Shown here piece after piece: positions 3,666 to 35,309 of a stretch of DNA of 40,955 nucleotides. Made by a program: the position numbers and the translations under genes. Source of the stretch: a virus; IMG/VR virus record IMGVR_UViG_3300020129_000647, positions 1-40,955 of that record; one strand, 5' to 3'. Every line of letters starts with the position of its first letter. Position 1 is the stretch's first letter. The notes below the pieces were generated by a model. The model was not told the DNA's origin. It worked only from the letters and a program-made list of their open reading frames with translations, and searched no databases.

Positions 3666-6600
3666 ATGCCCGATCTGCCCGACGTTCCGCAGCAAGCCTG
3701 GAACACGTTCGCGGCAGACCGCTGGTTCACGAGCTCGAGCGATCGCATCAACAGTTTGCCGACCGCGGCAACTCCGCCCGGTACGGGCTTCTTCAACTCG
3801 TCGAGCGCGCGCATCAACGGGCTGCAGGCGCAGATCCAGCCGCCGATGCCCATCCCGGCACCGGCGCCGCCGGTCACGCTGCCGCAGCCGACACCACTGC
3901 CGGTCCCGCAGCCGACACCGCTTCCCACTCCCGCGCCGGCACCGCTGCCGGGCCCGCTCCCGCAACCTGTAGCGCCGCCGCAGTTCCAACCGGGCCTGCC
4001 GCCGACGCCACCACCGGTCACCTTGCCGCAACCGGTGGCGCCTCCAGTTCAAGATCGCCCGGTCGAGCTGCTGCCCCAGACACCGACGCTGCCCATGCTC
4101 GGTGGCGATCAGCCGCAGTTGCCAACGCCCCCGGTGTACGCCCCGACGCCGGCGCCGACGCCCGTCCAGAGCCCCTTCGGCGGCGAGGCCACGGGTCCGT
4201 TCGCACCCGGCACGACCGAGAAGTACACGCCGCCGGGCACGACGACCACTACCACCACGACGACGACCACGCCTGCTCCGGCCGCGGCTCCTTCTCAAAC
4301 CGGTCCCATCGACAGTTCTACGCCTGCGGCATTCGCCCAGAGTTTTGCCCCGTATGCGCAGTACGCGGCGCAGCAACTTGGTGTCGACCCGAGCTGGGTG
4401 ACGGCCATGGCGGCGTCCGAGTCGAACTACGGTAAAGCTGGCGGTAACGAGCTCTTCGGCATCAAGGCGCTGCCCGGTCAGGCAGGCACGAGCATGATGA
4501 CCCACGAGGGTGAGTACGGCGGGACGAACGTGGCACAGACGTTCGCCAGTTACGACACGCCGCTCGACGCGGTGAAGGCCTACGTCAACCTGATCAAGAA
4601 CCACTATCCGGGCGCGGTCGGCGCGACAGACCTCGGCACGTTCGTCCACGGGCTCAAGCAGGGCGGCTACTTCACGGCGGCCGAACCGGAGTACCGCGGC
4701 ATTCTGAACGCGATCGCCAATCGCGGCGACATCCAGCAAGGTCTCCAGCAAGGTCTTGGTAACGCCGCGCAAGCCGTGGGGAATGCCGCGTCGACTGTGG
4801 GCAGCCAGGTCAGGGCTACCGCGAATACGGTCAGCCAGTTCGGCGACAAGCAGCTCTCGAGTGACGAGGCGTACGCCGCGTGCGGACCGGCGGCCGCGGT
4901 GCGTTTCGCCCAGGCCTACGGTCGCAATCCGACGCTACGAGAGGCGACCGATCTGGCAGCCACGGTGGGCTGGACTGCGGGCCAGGGCATGGCCGGCATC
5001 AACAGCGAGCAGCAGCTCCTCCAGAAACTGGGCGTCCCGACGAAACTGGTGGGGGCCGACACGCAGGCGATGGCGCACGAGGCGCAGACCGGCAACCCGG
5101 TCACGATCTCGACGCCCGGGCACTATTTCTACGCCGACGGCTACAACCCGCAGACCGGCGCGTTTCACGTCGGACAGTCTGGTCTCGACCTCCGCGGCGG
5201 CAGCGAGTGGATGACGCCCGAACAGATGTCCGCGCGTATGGGTCCGATCCAGGGCGCGCTCTTCGCCGATAACCCACAGGCGCCGGCCGTGTCGACCTCG
5301 GCACCGGTCACCGATCAGCTCTCTCAGACCCGCGACACCCTGAGCGCTGCATTAAGAGGTAAGGCGCCACTAGCACCGACGATCCCGCGTCAGGCCATGA
5401 CCCAGTTCGGCAGCAGCCAGGACACCCAGGTCCAGCAATTGGACCAGGCGGTCCAGACCGCGAACCAGCCGCGCCAGCGGCCGAATCCCCTGTCGGTCTT
5501 CGATACCAGCACACCAACACCCGGCGACATCTCGAAGAGCGATAACCCGATCGAGAACCTGGGCAGTCTGATCGGCAACGCCATTCAGAGCGCACTGCAG
5601 AGCGCGCTCGGTGGTGGACCCCCCGGTGGCGGCAACCAGCGCAGGACGCCACCCGACGAGAACCAGCCGAGCTCGCTCGACCTGAGCCTCGACAGCACGC
5701 CGATTCCGCAACCAGAGGACGTCGGTACGCGCACCCGTCAGATGATCGAGCAGTTGCAGACGCTCCCTGGTGGCCGCTCGCTGTCGTCGGTCGTCGGCGT
5801 CCCGGACCTCTTGCCGCCGGATACCAAGAACATGTCGCTGGCCGATCTGCTGCGCGAGGCGGTCACGAAAGCGGGCGAGACGGCGACGAACCTGCCGCGA
5901 CCGAGCATGGGGCCGGGCGGGCTGGGCATCTTCGACCCGCGGCTCGGCAACGACCCGCGCATGGAGGTTCCCGACCTGGTCGAGCCGATCGGACGCGCGG
6001 GCGAGTTCCTCGGCGAGCTCAGCGGGCTGAACCGCGGTGCACCCGAACGCGTCGCCAGCGCACTGGATCAGACGTTCGCCCGCGAAGCGGCGCTGCAGGG
6101 GCGCGGCCTCGCGGGCGGCGTCAGTCAGACCGCACTCGACGAGCTCACCCGTCCGCTGACCGGCGAGGTGCTGCCATCCAACGTCAGCGACGTCTTCAGC
6201 GGCGGCGACAGCCCGCTCCAGCAGATGACCACGCAGGGCCAGCAAAGCCTCGCCAGCGGACTGAGCCGCACCCGTGCCCAGCAAGCCTGGGACACGGTGG
6301 TGCGCAACCTGACTGACTCTGGCACCGACCTGAACAACATCGAGAAGGCGCTCTCGGAAAGACTGGGGCGGCCGCTGAGCGATACCGAACGTGTCGGGCT
6401 GCTCGCGCGCGTGGACCCCACCCACCAGGCCGAGACCATGGTGGAGCACCTGATCGGCCCGCAGTTGCGCCAGATCGGCGACCAGGCGCTTCCCGATTTC
6501 TACAATCTCGTCGAACACCGCACCAACCAGTCGGTCGCCGAGGGTCTCGCGAAGCGAGCCGAGTCGGACTATCTCGCGGGCGGTATCGCGCCGAGCACCG

Positions 6601-9600
6601 AGGAGCGCTTGAGTGCCGCGATGCAGGACTGGACCGCGGCCAGAGACGCCCACGACGAGGCCGTGGCAGCCGCGACGAACCCGCGTACGCGCGACCAGAT
6701 CAGCATCAGCGCCGCTCAGCGCAGAGTCGACGAGTCACGCGCGCAACTCGAGGCCGCGGCCGAAGCCGCGCGGCAAACGGCCGCCGAAGCCGCGCACGAG
6801 CAGGTGCTCGCCTCGCCCACCGCGCGCGTGGTGACCCACCCGGAACTGCGCGACCTGACCATCGCCGAGAACAACGCGAAGGTGCTCAACCAGCGCTACG
6901 AACGGCTGTTCGGGACCAATCCGGACAATCCCTACCTCGAGACGTTGGGCAGACAGGTGGGCCGCGCCGAGGACCGGGCGGCACAACTGCGCGCGCAGAT
7001 GGGCGAACGCTCCGCCACCAGGGGCGCCACGCTCGAAGGTCGCGCGCAGGCCGCGGCGGATGCCGCGTACACGACCCAGCCGAAGTACAACCCGACGCCC
7101 GAGTACGCCGGCGCCAACGTCAAGTTGCGTTACGAGCAGCAGAACCTGGACCGTCTGCAGCGCCAGCAGGCGCGCGGTATCCAGGGTCTGTCCGACGACG
7201 TGGCGCGTGCCGAGAAGCGTGTCAGCAACGCCTTCGCCGACGTCCAGCAGGCGCAGCAAGATCTGCCCGCGGCCGCGCGCGCACAGGGTCAGGCCCAGCT
7301 CCACGGCCGTGAGTTCGCCGGGCCGAACGGCGAGACGCTCCACTACGACGACGTGATGCAGCAGATTGCCAGTTTGCGCGACAAGTACGCCAGCCAGCCC
7401 GAGAAGTGGGCGCAGATGCAGGAAGGCCTGAGCCAGATTCAGGGTCTGCGCAAGCAGATGCTGCAGGAGAAGGTGGATCACGGGCTCATCAGCCAGGACG
7501 CCATGAACGGCTTGCTCGACCAGTACGACTTCTGGTCGCCCACCAACATGACCGACTACATGACCGACGAGCGACCGGGCATGGGCCTGTCGCGCGGCTC
7601 TTCCTTTAACGTCGGCACGTCCGGGCTGCACAGCTACACGCCCGAGGGCTCGTCGCTGCAGCATGAGAACCACGTCGCGGCGATGATCCGCGAGGTGTAC
7701 GCCCACAAGGGCGGCGTCGCGAAGAACGACGTCACCTCGGCGCTGGTCAAGGGCTTCGGTAACGACAGCACGGTCATGCGCCGGGTCGCCAACAACGTCA
7801 AGGAGTACGTCGACGCGGGCGGCAAGGACGGCAACCTGCTGCATCCGGACTATTCGCCGCGCGGCAACGAGCACAAGATCGTCGGCATGATCGACGGCAA
7901 GCGTCAGGAGTACGTCACTGACAACAAACTGCTCAAGACCGCGCTCGACCAGATGACCCCGACTGGCGATCCGAGCATGCTCGCGAGCATCCTGCAGGCG
8001 CCGGCGAAGATCGTGCGCATGACCGCGACCGAACGCAACCCCGCGTTCCAGCCGGTCAACCTGGTCCGCGACGCTTACACCTACGCGGCCCGTCAGGTTG
8101 CCGCGGGCGGTGCGCGCGGCGTCCCCGGCAACCTCGTCAGCGCCGGCATCCACCTGGGACCGGCAGCGGTGGTGGCGGCCAACACGTCGGAGGATGACCC
8201 GAACCGCAATCAGAAGATCATGGCCGCGCTGGCGCTCGGCACCGGGACGCGTATCGGCATCGGCAAGAACCTCGGTCTCGGGCCGAGCGCGGCCGGGGCG
8301 TACCTGCGCGCGTTCGCCGACGCGATGAGCGGCGTCGGCAGCGGACGGGTTACCGGCGAAGGCGCGCGTGCGCTGGAAGCATCCGGCGGCGCCATGCGCG
8401 GTGGTGGGGTGACCGGCCGCATGACCCAGACCCAGGCGCCGGAACAGTTGAGAAAGCTCACCCGCAGCACCGCCTTCGTGGTGCGCAACGGCGCCGACCT
8501 GAAACAACTGCTCGGCGACGTGGCCGCGTTCGGCTGGGTCAAGGCGCTCGGCAACCGTTTCGAGCAGGTGCCGCGCATCGCTACCCGCGAGCTCGCGCTC
8601 GCTCGCGGGGAGAGTCCGCTCGAGGCGATGCGCCAGGCGCGCGAGGTCACCACCGACTTCAATCGCGGCGGCCGCTTCACCAAGGAGATCAACCGCTACG
8701 TGCCCTTCTTCAATGTCGGGGTGCAGGCCTCGGCGCAATTGGGCCGCTTGCTCAAGGAGCATCCCGCTGGCGCGGCGTACGCCGGGCTCACCCTGCTCGG
8801 TGCGCCCGCGTCGGCGTCCGAAGCGTGGAACTATGCGGATCCGCAGCGCGCCCAGGATTACGAGGACGTGCCCGACTACCTGAAGAAGCAGGGCGTGGTG
8901 CTGATGCTGCCGGGCGAAGCGCCCGTGGACAAAAACGGCAACCGCGTGCCGCAGAAGATCGTGCTGCCCGTGCCGAACGAGTTCATGCCGTTCGTCGAGG
9001 CCGGTCGCGAAGCGTTTCATCACATCTCGGGCCAGGGTCTGACACGTGGCGCGGGCGAGATGGCGGGAACGCTCGCGCAGGAACTCAGCCCGATCAACGC
9101 GGGCAGTCGCAACGCGGTAGCCAGCGGCGTGTACGGCCTGATCCCGCCGCCGCTCAGCACGGTCGCTTCGCTCAACGCCAACAAGGACTGGTTCCGCGGC
9201 AGCACGATCGCCAACCAGTTCAGCGACGAGAACGCCTCGACCCTGGCCAAGGGCATCGCCCCGACCCTCGAGCAGGTGGTGACACAACTGCCAGGGTTGT
9301 CGTCAGCGCGCGTGCGTCCGTCGCAGATCGACTTCGCGCTCAAGGACCTCGGCAACGGCATGGCGCAACAGGGTCTCAACCTGAGCGACCTGGTCGCGGG
9401 CCGCGCACCGCGTGTACCCGATACGGCCTCAGAGTTGCCGGTCGTGGGCAGTCTGGCGAGCCGCTTCGTGCGCGGCACCGGCGGCGCCCAGTGGGAAGAC
9501 GTGCGTCAGCCGGACCAGATGCTCGCACCCGATGTGCGGCAGCAGATTCGTTCGCTCGGCGGCAAGACGCAGTACTACGAGCCGACCCCGGTGCCGTCCG

Positions 9601-9854
9601 ACATCAGCAAAATTCCGCTGCGGCAGTCCGAGCAGGTGGAGTACCAGCGGCTGACCAACCAGTTCTTCGACGAGCAGATCCGCAAGTACATGGCGACCCC
9701 GAGCTTCTCTGGTCGCGACGTGGTGCGCGAGCAGATGATCAGCCACGCCATGGACGCGGCGCGTTCGCGCGCACAAGCGCAAGTGCTGAAGCAGATCCGC
9801 GCCGGCGGCAGCAGCGTGGCGCAACGGCTCAAGCAACAGTCGTCGGCATTCTGA
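3666..9854 (+). CDS. Giant polyvalent virion protein: glucosaminidase-like, C39-like peptidase and LPD38-like domains
   Basis: This 2062-residue protein is probably packaged and ejected with the DNA. Residues 1-220 are a Pro-rich linker with a Thr tract (about 191-202). Residues about 225-360 look like a FlgJ/glucosaminidase-type muramidase: VDPSWVTAMAASESNYG with Glu252 as likely catalytic residue, then ELFGIKA and a Y/F-rich end. Residues about 398-530 look like a C39/papain-fold peptidase: Cys406 in YAACGPAAA and His486 in PGHYFYADGY. Residues 970-1290 are Ala/Gln/Arg-rich coiled coil. Residues about 1450-1720 carry NPAFQPVNLVRDAY and RYVPFFNVGVQAS, typical of large polyvalent protein-associated domain 38 (LPD38). 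Such proteins of other short-tailed phages carry cell-wall and host-takeover activities. The start is the ATG six bases after the previous stop. Domain limits are estimates from motifs. Confidence 0.75.
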   Translation: MPDLPDVPQQAWNTFAADRWFTSSSDRINSLPTAATPPGTGFFNSSSARINGLQAQIQPPMPIPAPAPPVTLPQPTPLPVPQPTPLPTPAPAPLPGPLPQPVAPPQFQPGLPPTPPPVTLPQPVAPPVQDRPVELLPQTPTLPMLGGDQPQLPTPPVYAPTPAPTPVQSPFGGEATGPFAPGTTEKYTPPGTTTTTTTTTTTPAPAAAPSQTGPIDSSTPAAFAQSFAPYAQYAAQQLGVDPSWVTAMAASESNYGKAGGNELFGIKALPGQAGTSMMTHEGEYGGTNVAQTFASYDTPLDAVKAYVNLIKNHYPGAVGATDLGTFVHGLKQGGYFTAAEPEYRGILNAIANRGDIQQGLQQGLGNAAQAVGNAASTVGSQVRATANTVSQFGDKQLSSDEAYAACGPAAAVRFAQAYGRNPTLREATDLAATVGWTAGQGMAGINSEQQLLQKLGVPTKLVGADTQAMAHEAQTGNPVTISTPGHYFYADGYNPQTGAFHVGQSGLDLRGGSEWMTPEQMSARMGPIQGALFADNPQAPAVSTSAPVTDQLSQTRDTLSAALRGKAPLAPTIPRQAMTQFGSSQDTQVQQLDQAVQTANQPRQRPNPLSVFDTSTPTPGDISKSDNPIENLGSLIGNAIQSALQSALGGGPPGGGNQRRTPPDENQPSSLDLSLDSTPIPQPEDVGTRTRQMIEQLQTLPGGRSLSSVVGVPDLLPPDTKNMSLADLLREAVTKAGETATNLPRPSMGPGGLGIFDPRLGNDPRMEVPDLVEPIGRAGEFLGELSGLNRGAPERVASALDQTFAREAALQGRGLAGGVSQTALDELTRPLTGEVLPSNVSDVFSGGDSPLQQMTTQGQQSLASGLSRTRAQQAWDTVVRNLTDSGTDLNNIEKALSERLGRPLSDTERVGLLARVDPTHQAETMVEHLIGPQLRQIGDQALPDFYNLVEHRTNQSVAEGLAKRAESDYLAGGIAPSTEERLSAAMQDWTAARDAHDEAVAAATNPRTRDQISISAAQRRVDESRAQLEAAAEAARQTAAEAAHEQVLASPTARVVTHPELRDLTIAENNAKVLNQRYERLFGTNPDNPYLETLGRQVGRAEDRAAQLRAQMGERSATRGATLEGRAQAAADAAYTTQPKYNPTPEYAGANVKLRYEQQNLDRLQRQQARGIQGLSDDVARAEKRVSNAFADVQQAQQDLPAAARAQGQAQLHGREFAGPNGETLHYDDVMQQIASLRDKYASQPEKWAQMQEGLSQIQGLRKQMLQEKVDHGLISQDAMNGLLDQYDFWSPTNMTDYMTDERPGMGLSRGSSFNVGTSGLHSYTPEGSSLQHENHVAAMIREVYAHKGGVAKNDVTSALVKGFGNDSTVMRRVANNVKEYVDAGGKDGNLLHPDYSPRGNEHKIVGMIDGKRQEYVTDNKLLKTALDQMTPTGDPSMLASILQAPAKIVRMTATERNPAFQPVNLVRDAYTYAARQVAAGGARGVPGNLVSAGIHLGPAAVVAANTSEDDPNRNQKIMAALALGTGTRIGIGKNLGLGPSAAGAYLRAFADAMSGVGSGRVTGEGARALEASGGAMRGGGVTGRMTQTQAPEQLRKLTRSTAFVVRNGADLKQLLGDVAAFGWVKALGNRFEQVPRIATRELALARGESPLEAMRQAREVTTDFNRGGRFTKEINRYVPFFNVGVQASAQLGRLLKEHPAGAAYAGLTLLGAPASASEAWNYADPQRAQDYEDVPDYLKKQGVVLMLPGEAPVDKNGNRVPQKIVLPVPNEFMPFVEAGREAFHHISGQGLTRGAGEMAGTLAQELSPINAGSRNAVASGVYGLIPPPLSTVASLNANKDWFRGSTIANQFSDENASTLAKGIAPTLEQVVTQLPGLSSARVRPSQIDFALKDLGNGMAQQGLNLSDLVAGRAPRVPDTASELPVVGSLASRFVRGTGGAQWEDVRQPDQMLAPDVRQQIRSLGGKTQYYEPTPVPSDISKIPLRQSEQVEYQRLTNQFFDEQIRKYMATPSFSGRDVVREQMISHAMDAARSRAQAQVLKQIRAGGSSVAQRLKQQSSAF

Positions 9855-22958: not shown

Positions 22959-22998
22959 AAGAACCTCCGCCACCCCTGTCAAGGTGAGGGAGGTTCTT
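22959..22998 (+). terminator. Hairpin terminator of the late operon
   Basis: AAGAACCTCC (22959-22968) pairs perfectly with GGAGGTTCTT (22989-22998), and an inner CACC/GGTG (22971-22974 with 22983-22986) extends the stem. It begins within the stop codon of the last late gene. The T-tract is short (TT then CC), so the hairpin may also act in the reverse direction, where the arm is followed by a run of A/T (TTTTACG on the minus strand). A second hairpin, GCGGCG/CGCCGC at 23013-23035 with a CAT/ATG extension, follows. Confidence 0.7.
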
Positions 22999-24251: not shown

Positions 24252-24596
24252 CTAGCAAAGCTTGTTTTCTTCGAGCGCCCGAGCCTGCCAGGCGACCTCT
24301 TTGATTGCGTCCAGCACCTCTCGCAGTCGCTTGACTTCAACACGCAATTCGTCACGTTCGGCTTCGTACTGGTCTGCTCGCATCTCGGCTAGTTCCAGTT
24401 GGAGAGTTAGTTCGTAGGTGCGCCCGGCGATCAATGCCTCGAACCGCTGGTTGCCTTCACGTATTTGCGCCTTGAGTCGCGCGTTGTCGGCAAGCAACGG
24501 GATCGAGCCTTCGGCCACGACACCGCGTCCGCAGTTGCAATGTAGGCATCCGTCTTCATCTACGAAGTCCCAATGCCGCTCTTGTTCGATGGTCAT
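24252..24596 (-). CDS. Coiled-coil protein with Cys cluster, hypothetical
   Basis: 114 residues starting at ATG 24596, which has GAGGGAG about five bases upstream; a longer start at 24617 lacks this. The N-terminus has a Cys cluster (DEDGCLHCNCGRGVV) that might bind zinc. The rest is a long coiled coil (ADNARLKAQIREGNQRFEAL and QYEAERDELRVEVKRLREVL). Its plan, a Cys motif plus coiled coil, resembles the next gene (24627-25277) and may be a distant paralogue. Function unknown. Confidence 0.5.
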   Translation of the reverse strand: MTIEQERHWDFVDEDGCLHCNCGRGVVAEGSIPLLADNARLKAQIREGNQRFEALIAGRTYELTLQLELAEMRADQYEAERDELRVEVKRLREVLDAIKEVAWQARALEENKLC

Positions 24597-32128: not shown

Positions 32129-32534
32129 GCAAGAGCTCGCCCAACCTCCGCTCGATGGGCAAGCCATTCGGAAGTTGATGGATGGCAAGCTCAGCGAGCG
32201 CGAGTGGCAGAAGCAGGTAGAAACCCACCTCACCATCTTCGGCTGGTGGTGGATGCACATTCCGCCCAACGTGGTGGTGTGTCCGCGGTGCCACACCAAG
32301 ATCTATCGCGGCATTCGGAAAGGTTTCGTCGACATCTGGGCGATCAAGCCGCCGTACATGTTGTGGCTCGAGTTGAAGACCGAACGCGGCCAGCTCGAGC
32401 CCGAGCAGCGTGAGCTCATCGACCTGTTGCGCGCGTGCGGCCAGACGGTGCTCCACGCCCGGCCGCGCGATCGCGCCGCGGTTCTCGAACTGATCACGCA
32501 TCCAGAAAGAAGGCCTCCTCATGTCGACGACTGA
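32109..32534 (+). CDS. VRR-NUC nuclease
   Basis: 141 residues with the PD-(D/E)XK-type VRR-NUC core: RGIRKGFVDIWAIKPPY (Asp in GFVDIW), LWLELKTERGQLEPEQRELI (E-x-K) and ACGQTVLHARPRD. An N-terminal extension includes EREWQKQVETHLTIFGWWWM and a Cys pair VCPRCHTK that may hold zinc. Family members cut DNA branches or nick DNA in repair and replication; phage versions are found beside primases and recombinases, as here. GTG 32109 lies inside the previous gene; translation is coupled with both sides. Confidence 0.75.
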   Translation: MVGRRAKQELAQPPLDGQAIRKLMDGKLSEREWQKQVETHLTIFGWWWMHIPPNVVVCPRCHTKIYRGIRKGFVDIWAIKPPYMLWLELKTERGQLEPEQRELIDLLRACGQTVLHARPRDRAAVLELITHPERRPPHVDD

Positions 32535-34569
32535 CACCAGTCCGCAGCTTGCGGCTGCTCTCCTGTATGGCGCATTGGGCTGGCCGGTCGTGCCGTTATT
32601 CACGCCGACCGACGGTGTGTGCGACTGTCCGCAATCCTGGAAGGACGCGGACAAGTGCACGCCGGGCAAGCATCCGCGGACCAGGAACGGGCTCGACGAC
32701 GCCTCCACCGACGAGGCGGCCATCCGCCGCTGGTGGGGAATGTGGCCGCACGCCAATATCGGGGTCGACCTGGCGCGTGCGGGCCTGGTGGACATCGCGC
32801 CGGACTCGCTCGAGTGGTTCGCCGAGTTCACCGCGCGTGGCCTGCCGAAGACGCTGAGCTTCGCCTCGGGCGGTGGCGAGGGGCATGCGCACCACCTGTA
32901 CGCGCGTCCCGAGGGCTGCGCCATCCATCGCAACTGTCAGACGGGCAAGTACGACGTGATGAGCAACGGGTATGCCGTGATGCCTCCGTCGCTGCACTCC
33001 AGCGGGCGACGCTACACGTGGCTGGAACCGGCCGACGGCGTCGTGCTGCACACGGCCCAGGTCGGCGCCCCCGACTGGGGGCAGGCAATGCTCACGCACA
33101 GGCCTCGCACAGCCCCGTCAGCGCACGAGCGCGACGAGGATGCGCCACCGGTCACGCTCAGCAGCGACGGGCTGGAGCGCTGGTACGGGCGGCTGTACGA
33201 AACGAAGCCGGACGGCAGCGTCGACCGCAGCTACAGCCTGTGGTGGCTTGCCGTGTTCCTGCTCGAGGCGGGGTGCCGCGCGCCGTTCGTCGAGGATCTG
33301 CTGGCCGAGCGCGACCTGGCGCTTGGCTGGGGAAAGTTCAGCCAGCGCGACGACGCGATCGAACGCTACTCGGTCATCGTCGAGCGTGCGCTCGAGAGCC
33401 AGGGGCCGGGCCGCGTGCGGCTGAACGGCAAGCCTGCACAACCAAAACCTGAGCCGCCGGTTGCAAGCGGCTTCACGTTCACGTCGCTCGAGGACTTGCT
33501 CGCGGAGCCGCCCGAGGAGGTAGCGTACCTGGTCGACGGGCTGCTGCCGAGCGGCGGCGTGTCGCTGTGGGGCGCCAAGCCGAAGGTGGGCAAGAGCGTG
33601 GCGGTACGCAACCTTGCGCTGGCGGTCGCGCGCGGGGAGATGTTCCTGGAGCGCGCGTGTCACCGCGGCGGGGTGGTGGTGCTGGCGCTCGAGGAGAAGC
33701 GAGCCGAGGTCGCCAATCATTTCCGCCAACTTGGCGGTATCGACGAGCTGGTGCACATTCACGTCGGGGCGGCGCCGACGAACAGCAAAGAAGGCATGGC
33801 CGCGTTGCGCAACGCGATCACGCTGTATCAGCCGGTGCTGGTGATCGCCGACCCGGTGCTGAAGCTGGTACGGGTACGCGACTCGAGCGACTATGCCGAG
33901 CTGACGCGTGAGCTCGAGCCGGTGATCGAGCTGGCGCGCACCACGGGCTGCCACATTGCGGTGACGCATCACCTGGGCAAGCAAGCGCGCGAGGGTGGCG
34001 ACGACGTGCTGGGCTCGACGGCGATCTTTGGGGCGGTCGACACGTTGGTGCTGCTCAGACGTCGCAAGGATAACCAGCGGGTGCTGCAAACGATCCAGCG
34101 CTACGGCAGCGACCTGGCCGAGACGCTCGTGCCGATGGATGCAGAGACCGGGCGGGTCATGCTCGGTACGCAGTTGGCGCAAGTCAAGTTGGCCGAAGCA
34201 CGCGTGGCAGTCCTTGACATGCTGGGCAAGCTGGGCGAGGGGGCAAGCCTGCAGCAGAAGACGATCCGCGAGCAGTCCGGGGTGGATTCGGCGGACGCGT
34301 ACAGGGCTCTCCAAGAACTGGTTGCCGAGGGCATTGTCGGACGCAGCGGCATGGGCAAACCCCACCATCCCTTCCTGTACTGGCTCGTCGAGAAGAACCC
34401 CGGAGGGGATCCAGAAAGTCTTGTTTTCTTGTTTTCTCCTACTAGTAATGAAAAACAAGAAAACAAGACAAACAAGAGTCCTTTTGAGAACGAAACCGGC
34501 CCGCGGGCCGAAGATCAGGCGCCGCTGTCAGAAAACAACATAAACGGGGCTGAGGAGCTGCCCTGGTGA
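32521..34569 (+). CDS. Primase-polymerase / RepA-type helicase fusion
   Basis: 682 residues. Residues 1-200 look like a prim-pol domain (ALGWPVVPLFTPTDG, WWGMWPHANIGVDLARAG, GGGEGHAHHLYARPEGCAIH, and a C-rich insertion CDCPQSWKDADKCTPGKHPR). Residues about 315-560 are a RepA-like AAA ATPase: Walker A GAKPKVGKS (351-359), PVLVIADPVLKLVRVRDSSD, and VTHHLGKQAREGGDDVLGST. The end has a winged helix (QQKTIREQSGVDSADAYRAL). It would prime and unwind phage DNA. The usual DxD catalytic pair of prim-pol appears here as Asp91-x-x-x-Asp95 (VDIAPD), which is unusual. ATG 32521 has an AGGAGG-like upstream region. Confidence 0.8.
   Translation: MSTTDTSPQLAAALLYGALGWPVVPLFTPTDGVCDCPQSWKDADKCTPGKHPRTRNGLDDASTDEAAIRRWWGMWPHANIGVDLARAGLVDIAPDSLEWFAEFTARGLPKTLSFASGGGEGHAHHLYARPEGCAIHRNCQTGKYDVMSNGYAVMPPSLHSSGRRYTWLEPADGVVLHTAQVGAPDWGQAMLTHRPRTAPSAHERDEDAPPVTLSSDGLERWYGRLYETKPDGSVDRSYSLWWLAVFLLEAGCRAPFVEDLLAERDLALGWGKFSQRDDAIERYSVIVERALESQGPGRVRLNGKPAQPKPEPPVASGFTFTSLEDLLAEPPEEVAYLVDGLLPSGGVSLWGAKPKVGKSVAVRNLALAVARGEMFLERACHRGGVVVLALEEKRAEVANHFRQLGGIDELVHIHVGAAPTNSKEGMAALRNAITLYQPVLVIADPVLKLVRVRDSSDYAELTRELEPVIELARTTGCHIAVTHHLGKQAREGGDDVLGSTAIFGAVDTLVLLRRRKDNQRVLQTIQRYGSDLAETLVPMDAETGRVMLGTQLAQVKLAEARVAVLDMLGKLGEGASLQQKTIREQSGVDSADAYRALQELVAEGIVGRSGMGKPHHPFLYWLVEKNPGGDPESLVFLFSPTSNEKQENKTNKSPFENETGPRAEDQAPLSENNINGAEELPW
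34418..34469. repeat. Perfect 18-bp inverted repeat, AT-rich, in the helicase gene
   Basis: GTCTTGTTTTCTTGTTTT (34418-34435) and its exact complement AAAACAAGAAAACAAGAC (34452-34469) flank a 16-base loop containing ACTAGT. Each arm is itself a near tandem AAAACAAG repeat, and a further ACAAACAAG follows. The segment is AT-rich within a GC-rich genome, yet the reading frame stays open (residues about 633-652, NEKQENKTNK). Cruciform DNA, an origin or a terminator are candidate roles. Confidence 0.85.
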
Positions 34570-35309
34570 GCGTCATGCCGCACTGGTCGGCTTCCCGGTT
34601 CATGCTGTGGGACCAGTGCCCTGGCAGTTTCAAAGAGCGCTACGTCGACGGGCAGCCCGCGGTGGTGACCGAAGCGATGGCGTTCGGTCAGGCGGTGCAT
34701 ATGGGGCTCGAGGCGCACTACCGCGGCGACGACGGCATCCGCGCGTATCGGGCGGCCTGGAAGCACTTCGCGAGCGAACTACCCAACGTCGACAAGAGCC
34801 TGACCGGCACCGGGCTCACGCTGATCGAGCAGGTACAGGAGCTCAACCTCGAGGGCTTGCCGGAGCGGGGCTTCAGCATCGATACGGAGGCCGACCTGGA
34901 CGCGCCGATCGTGGGCGCCATTGACCTGTGGGGCAGCGACGGCGTGATCTACGACTTCAAGACGACAAAGGGTCTCTGGTCCCAGGCGAGAGCCGAGGCC
35001 GAATTGTGGCAGCCGGCGCTGTACACGTGGGCCAGATGGAACGAAGAGCCCAGCTACGCGGGCCAGTTCGAGTACATCGTGCTGAATCGCGTCCTGGGGA
35101 CGCTGCAGCGCTTCCGGAGGCAGTGGACCGTAGATCAGGTGCTCGAACAACAGAACGAAGCCTGGGGCCGCATGCGCGCGATAGCGGCCAACGTCAAGGC
35201 CGACAGGTATGTCTGCCATGGCAAGCACGGCTTCTGTCCCGAGTGTGGCGACCGCTGGAGCCACGACCATGCGTGCTCGCCGGAGGTGCGCAGGTTTGGC
35301 GGCGACTGA
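34566..35309 (+). CDS. PD-(D/E)XK nuclease, Cas4/RecB-like
   Basis: 247 residues starting with GTG overlapping the helicase stop (GTGA). N-terminal WSASRFMLWDQCPGSFKERY, AFGQAVHMGLEAHYRG, then DLDAPIVGAIDLWGSDGVIY and YDFKTTKGLW: G-x-I-D followed by D-x-K, the catalytic core. The C-terminus has a Cys/His set (CHGKHGFCPECGDRWSHDHAC) that may bind zinc or a Fe-S cluster with the N-terminal CP. RecB/Cas4-like nucleases of phages process DNA ends in recombination. It is coupled to the primase-helicase. Confidence 0.75.
   Translation: MSVMPHWSASRFMLWDQCPGSFKERYVDGQPAVVTEAMAFGQAVHMGLEAHYRGDDGIRAYRAAWKHFASELPNVDKSLTGTGLTLIEQVQELNLEGLPERGFSIDTEADLDAPIVGAIDLWGSDGVIYDFKTTKGLWSQARAEAELWQPALYTWARWNEEPSYAGQFEYIVLNRVLGTLQRFRRQWTVDQVLEQQNEAWGRMRAIAANVKADRYVCHGKHGFCPECGDRWSHDHACSPEVRRFGGD

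Follow-up and report, generated by a model that had tools for sequence, protein, structure and literature searches.

A candidate iteron-type replication origin within the 3' end of a viral AAA_25 primase-helicase gene

Introduction

The helicases of SaPI and SCCmec elements bind, through their C-terminal domains, iterons just downstream of their own genes; these proteins (SaPI Rep and SCCmec Cch2) belong to a helicase family other than the one considered here and have a separate primase, and Cch2 recognizes 5-nt direct repeats, inverted repeats being dispensable for its binding (PMC7581432). A closer domain arrangement is that of pRN1 ORF904 (and phages BIP-1/BPP-1), in which Prim-Pol, helicase and a C-terminal wHTH are followed by an inverted repeat 3' of the gene; pRN1 requires this stem-loop, which is conserved in symmetry only, but its helicase is of the SF3 type and the ~100-nt structure, has a 58-nt loop, with pRN1 stated to lack an iteron structure (PMC4234260). 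In phage P4 a single protein, alpha, primes, unwinds and binds origin repeats via a winged helix (PMC4234260), and in phage Lambda the origin bound by O lies within the coding sequence of the initiator itself (PMC6022878). In the PLE RepA protein the DNA-binding domain and the origin covary, and the protein is active on its cognate origin only; it has a RepA_N domain, and its semi-palindromic iterons, of ~30 bp, occupy a non-coding region of their own (PMC8263062). Lastly, Prim-Pol proteins with a RepA-type helicase and a winged helix, for which a role of the latter in origin recognition was proposed, have a domain order identical to that of the protein described below; the available text of that survey describes no cis-acting site, for which the element reported here is a candidate (PMC5862659).

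The stretch of DNA analyzed here (the window) is a complete IMG/VR virus record of 40,955 bases. It shares with SaPI Rep and Cch2 short iterons by the helicase's own gene, here with predicted binding, and differs from them in having a RecA-type AAA_25 helicase fused to Prim-Pol and, within the gene, inverted pairs of iterons that flank a TA core. Like pRN1, the window and its relatives keep a symmetry of varying sequence by the 3' end of a Prim-Pol gene; unlike in pRN1, the helicase is AAA_25 (RecA-type) rather than SF3, and the arms are tandem iterons whose sequence tracks the wHTH. P4 alpha has a Toprim-type primase in place of Prim-Pol and a helicase of another family than that of the window, and, unlike in the window, its iterons are not known to lie within the gene. 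Lambda O is neither a helicase nor a primase and has a different fold, and its origin is located mid-gene.

Results

A preliminary description of this DNA reported a perfect 18-bp AT-rich inverted repeat with a 16-base loop, and our analysis confirmed it: the arms (34418-34469 with their loop; Table 1) are 18 nt each, 100% complementary, and enclose 16 nt (CTCCTACTAGTAATGA), although the ACTAGT singled out in the loop proved to be only the center of the longer core TACTAGTA. Each arm, described as a near tandem repeat, was indeed built by tandem duplication of CTTGTTTT or, on the opposite side, AAAACAAG. By composition-weighted scoring the repeat reached 40.8 bits; the next best in the 40,955 bp had 22.2, and the best in 20 dinucleotide shuffles of the window 25.4. 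The arms had no other match in the window with three or fewer mismatches (0.00 expected from shuffling); on these grounds we judged the repeat to be real. There were five copies of AAAACAAG in the window, four of them within the element. The sole outside copy is at 24261 on the minus strand.

Table 1. Coordinates of the element, its host gene and the neighboring gene in the window.
Feature	Position	Strand	Remarks
Primase-helicase gene	32521-34569	+	Prim-Pol, AAA_25 helicase, wHTH, low-complexity tail
C-terminal wHTH	34198-34398	+	aa ~560-626
wHTH recognition helix GVDSADAYRALQEL	34279-34320	+	protein segment with best covariation with repeats
Left arm GTCTTGTTTTCTTGTTTT	34418-34435	+	two tandem iterons CTTGTTTT (34420-34427, 34428-34435)
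TA-rich palindromic core TACTAGTA	34440-34447		no strand; single copy in window
Right arm AAAACAAGAAAACAAGAC	34452-34469	-	two inverted iterons AAAACAAG (34452-34459, 34460-34467)
Degenerate fifth iteron AAACAAG	34470-34476	-	directly after right arm
PD-(D/E)XK nuclease gene	34566-35309	+	downstream; overlaps helicase stop

The host gene encodes a protein of 682 aa with profile matches to a Prim-Pol domain (aa 14-186, E=7e-26) and an AAA_25 RecA-type helicase domain (aa 321-489, E=1e-26), and its frame, as previously described, continues uninterrupted through the element. In a search with the full-length protein the wHTH was weak, with HTH_IclR under the cut-off; with the isolated wHTH and a 21-member alignment we obtained matches to GntR, MarR, TrmB and IclR-type HTH domains, and the second HTH helix aligned with the GntR recognition helix. 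The element sits just past this wHTH, in the low-complexity C-terminal tail and ~100–150 bp ahead of the stop codon, so that its reported location at the end of the helicase gene is correct but it is the tail, not the helicase domain, that contains it.

Clear relatives of the primase-helicase were found at twelve viral loci, and scans of genome contigs added none in a first and six in a second round. An exact-arm search of viral contigs returned 19 chance matches, mostly in AT-rich genomes and in no case as an inverted pair, so that conservation does not extend to the arm sequence as such. Nearly all relatives nevertheless have an inverted repeat at the same location, with arms that differ from those of the window (arm words include CTGTATTGCTGTATT, CTGTCTTGCTGTCT, CGGTTTTCGGTTCC and CCGTATTCCGTATT; for instance, the L034 element reads CTGTATTG and that of L079 CCGTATTC). 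We aligned 28 elements on their cores, after automated detection and curation by eye, and these revealed a common plan: two tandem iterons of 7–8 bp are directed into a TA-rich core, with their mirror image on the opposite side. Nearly all curated elements have the TA-rich core flanked by repeats (L090 is without a core), and the core reads TACTAGTA, TATATA, CTATAG or alike; TACTAGTA is retained in the window and five group-1 relatives (L034, L035, L037, L043 and L032), other TA-rich cores taking its place elsewhere. The same plan extended to distant relatives, including Thermomicrobia, Nitrospira and Methylomirabilis bin contigs, with words such as TTGTTCCC, CTGTTCCC, GCTCCACC and ACCATTGAT, and no such repeat was found near the gene in at least four distant relatives, among them L062, L066, L067 and L069.

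The placement and number of the elements varied among the relatives. The element lies past the stop codon in L033, L040, L054, L055 and L076, and ~200 bp further on in L029; tandem copies were present in four loci, with two elements each in L022, L023 and L029, and two complete and one partial in L032. In L041, L048, L053 and L093 the iterons are kept out of register, pairing at just 12–14 of 20 positions, and in L056, L090 and L091 the repeats are mostly direct. In the latter two, which are Thermomicrobia contigs, five to six AGCTCCACC direct repeats (L090:4480-4760 and L091:5920-6060) lie within coding sequence and translate to a Ser/Thr-rich peptide; their helicases are relatives at 54–55% identity, which hints at a Chloroflexota bacterium as the host of the window virus. 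Dense arrays of ACCATTGAT, five in one direction and three to four in the other, were observed at L073:4462-4560 and L074:4587-4690, directly after a helicase gene with a C-terminal domain other than this wHTH.

Using composition-weighted inverted-repeat scoring, a replacement chosen after a generic iteron-count score had discriminated poorly between the region and other parts of the loci, we found that the 350 nt past the wHTH held the top inverted repeat of the locus in 10 of 10 close-clade loci (window included; 0.52 expected), in three of five second-clade loci (0.20 expected) and in 16 of 24 other loci (1.37 expected). A held-out set of 42 clusters of distant AAA_25 helicases, fetched afterwards and unused in forming the origin idea, was scored by the same statistic as the other loci but with the stop codon as the anchor of a 500-nt region; here the gene-end region ranked top in 16 clusters (4.2 expected, Fisher p 0.005).

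Comparison of the loci further revealed concerted variation of the iteron sequence and the wHTH recognition helix. With helicase-core similarity removed, arm similarity was correlated with recognition-helix similarity across 25 non-redundant loci (partial Mantel r=0.36, p=0.0002) and in disjoint subsets of ten close relatives (r=0.51, p=0.004) and ten distant ones (r=0.54, p=0.0004), in tests that are possibly anti-conservative under shared ancestry, which is not fully removed; conversely, given the helix, the helicase core added no explanation of the arms (r=0.06, p=0.22). A sliding 14-aa scan over helicase and wHTH placed its top five of 293 windows over the recognition helix (partial r 0.33–0.36), the best value outside the wHTH being 0.18. 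GTAT iterons were present in six of seven loci with helices starting DR or ER versus one of 18 others (Fisher p=0.0003, an optimistic value as the pattern was spotted ahead of testing). For instance, L039 has the recognition helix ELDRNVTIRALKEL and CCGTATT iterons, and L038/L039 and L079, which belongs to a different helicase clade, have CCGTATTCC arms and a DR-type helix in common despite barely similar helicase cores; for L075 we predicted GTAT repeats from the helix prior to reading its DNA. There were also counter-examples, the window having arms similar to those of L092 and L093 and dissimilar helices. The arm alignment in relatives proposed with the preliminary description was thus positive for covariation, and this covariation supports the view that the arms behave as protein-binding iterons and are putative wHTH sites; GC skew, which had also been proposed as a check, showed no turn at the element and is a weak test here.

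Many of the distant AAA_25 clusters have a CCCC-TATA/TAAA-GGGG core. In L126, L133, L139, L171, L222, L223, L226 and L257 this palindromic core, with flanking repeats, lies shortly past the gene, and it may represent a generalized version of the core in the window. In Caenibius sp. WL plasmid p1 an iteron array of about ten TGCGGAAG words comes after the AAA_25 gene, as does one of GGGGACA words in Salicola phage CGphi29; in Caldicellulosiruptor bescii pATHE01 the array, of CTCTATTCA words, is intragenic. As the shuttle vector for C. bescii is based on the other plasmid, pBAS2, it is no test of the pATHE01 array as an origin. No clear element was found past the AAA_25 gene of four distant relatives, Gordonia phages Cozz and SteamedHams, Manatee Spring ctVRi840 and Microcystis phage Mae-JY30.

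Discussion

The comparisons establish the placement, architecture and covariation of the element at the level of sequence, and we consider it a strong candidate for the replication origin of this phage, or the core of one. The best reading is that of an iteron origin bound by the wHTH of the phage's own primase-helicase, akin to those of SaPI Rep, P4 alpha and pRN1, in this case with a RecA-type AAA_25 helicase. As in initiator-helicase iteron origins of the SaPI Rep/P4 alpha type, there is a helicase gene with a predicted C-terminal DNA-binding domain, there are multiple short repeats beside the gene, and an AT-rich segment is flanked by the repeats. We propose that the wHTH, as a putative origin-binding domain, would bind the iterons in the double helix, and that the two inverted iteron pairs would load two helicase assemblies in opposed orientation; the TA-rich core, as the presumed melting and loading site, would then melt, the AAA_25 helicase would unwind outward both ways, and the N-terminal Prim-Pol domain would make the first primers. 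That the element codes for a portion of the protein tail would be incidental. Of the interpretations offered in the preliminary description, that of an origin where the replication helicase ends is the best supported, the arms covarying in relatives, and a cruciform, a terminator and selection on "DNA shape" fare less well.

A different role for the same binding is that the wHTH recognizes the iterons for autoregulation, copy-number or incompatibility control, or partition rather than for origin firing. Control through similar sites is common among Rep proteins, the tandem copies in L022, L023 and L032 suit either role, and covariation speaks to binding specificity and not to function; however, the element is at the 3' end of the gene rather than at a promoter, with no sigma-70-like promoter found nearby, its TA-rich core between inverted sites resembles an unwinding element, and it is the sole such site in the window. 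We therefore regard a purely controlling role as unlikely.

We give still less credence to an origin recognized by structure, in which a cruciform or hairpin would be extruded, as proposed for pRN1, or as at the ssi sites of RSF1010, and the protein would read its shape or prime on its loop. The stem is perfect in the window, with a predicted folding z-score of -3.7, and pRN1 is a precedent for a structure that is kept while its sequence is not (PMC4234260). Yet a reader of shape needs neither tandem repeats in the arms nor an arm sequence that tracks the recognition helix, and the cruciform is disfavored by the several relatives that keep directional 7–8 bp repeats without a perfect palindrome (L041, L048, L053 and L093) or with mostly direct ones (L056, L090 and L091). 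The earlier proposal that DNA shape rather than peptide is selected is supported in its preference for DNA over peptide, as the element is within the gene, past its stop or ~200 bp on depending on the relative, and is disfavored in its appeal to shape.

An RNA hairpin acting as a terminator, or in translation or decay control, between helicase and nuclease is highly improbable. The predicted RNA fold is strong; however, the stem is AT-rich and without a T-run, a promoter/terminator scan made no terminator call at it, no Rfam match was found anywhere in the window, and, since helicase stop and nuclease gene overlap, a terminator at the stem would cut both genes. Folding as RNA is also disfavored by the non-Watson-Crick pairs, in which G-U (22) is not in excess of A-C (31) on the coding strand, so that there is no strand-specific wobble tolerance. 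A recombination, resolution or packaging site (a tyrosine-recombinase core, protelomerase site or cos/pac) has inverted arms and a short core of similar outline, but can be given hardly any weight when the arms track the wHTH of the adjacent helicase, the site remains by the helicase in viruses, plasmids and genome contigs alike, and the terminase gene is 4 kb from the element.

Returning to the iteron origin, we speculate that it may be general: the origins of phages, plasmids and integrated elements with AAA_25 primase-helicases would share one plan at the 3' end of the gene (inward-pointing iterons, a CC-TA core-GG and their mirror image), with a helix-iteron code that is readable, a specificity that is predictable from the protein and an apparent switching by one helix. 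We see the arguments for and against this broader proposal as evenly balanced. Our literature search, with incomplete coverage of subscription papers, found no description of this element or of an AAA_25 cis-acting site, and the origins of most phages known from sequence only are unmapped. If the proposal is true, a large family of replication proteins, from phages and plasmids, bears its own origin at the gene end, such origins could be found by inspection and minimal replicons tested in laboratory hosts, and the coevolution of initiator and origin could be traced across natural diversity; the element would also be a case of a coding sequence overwritten by a DNA-binding array.

Two further features of the window were observed away from this locus. 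An inverted repeat of 16 nt with an 8-nt loop (AAGAACCTCCGCCACC/GGTGAGGGAGGTTCTT) at 22959-22998, the third strongest in the window, could be a terminator, and a single open reading frame of 2062 aa occupies 3666-9854 on the + strand.
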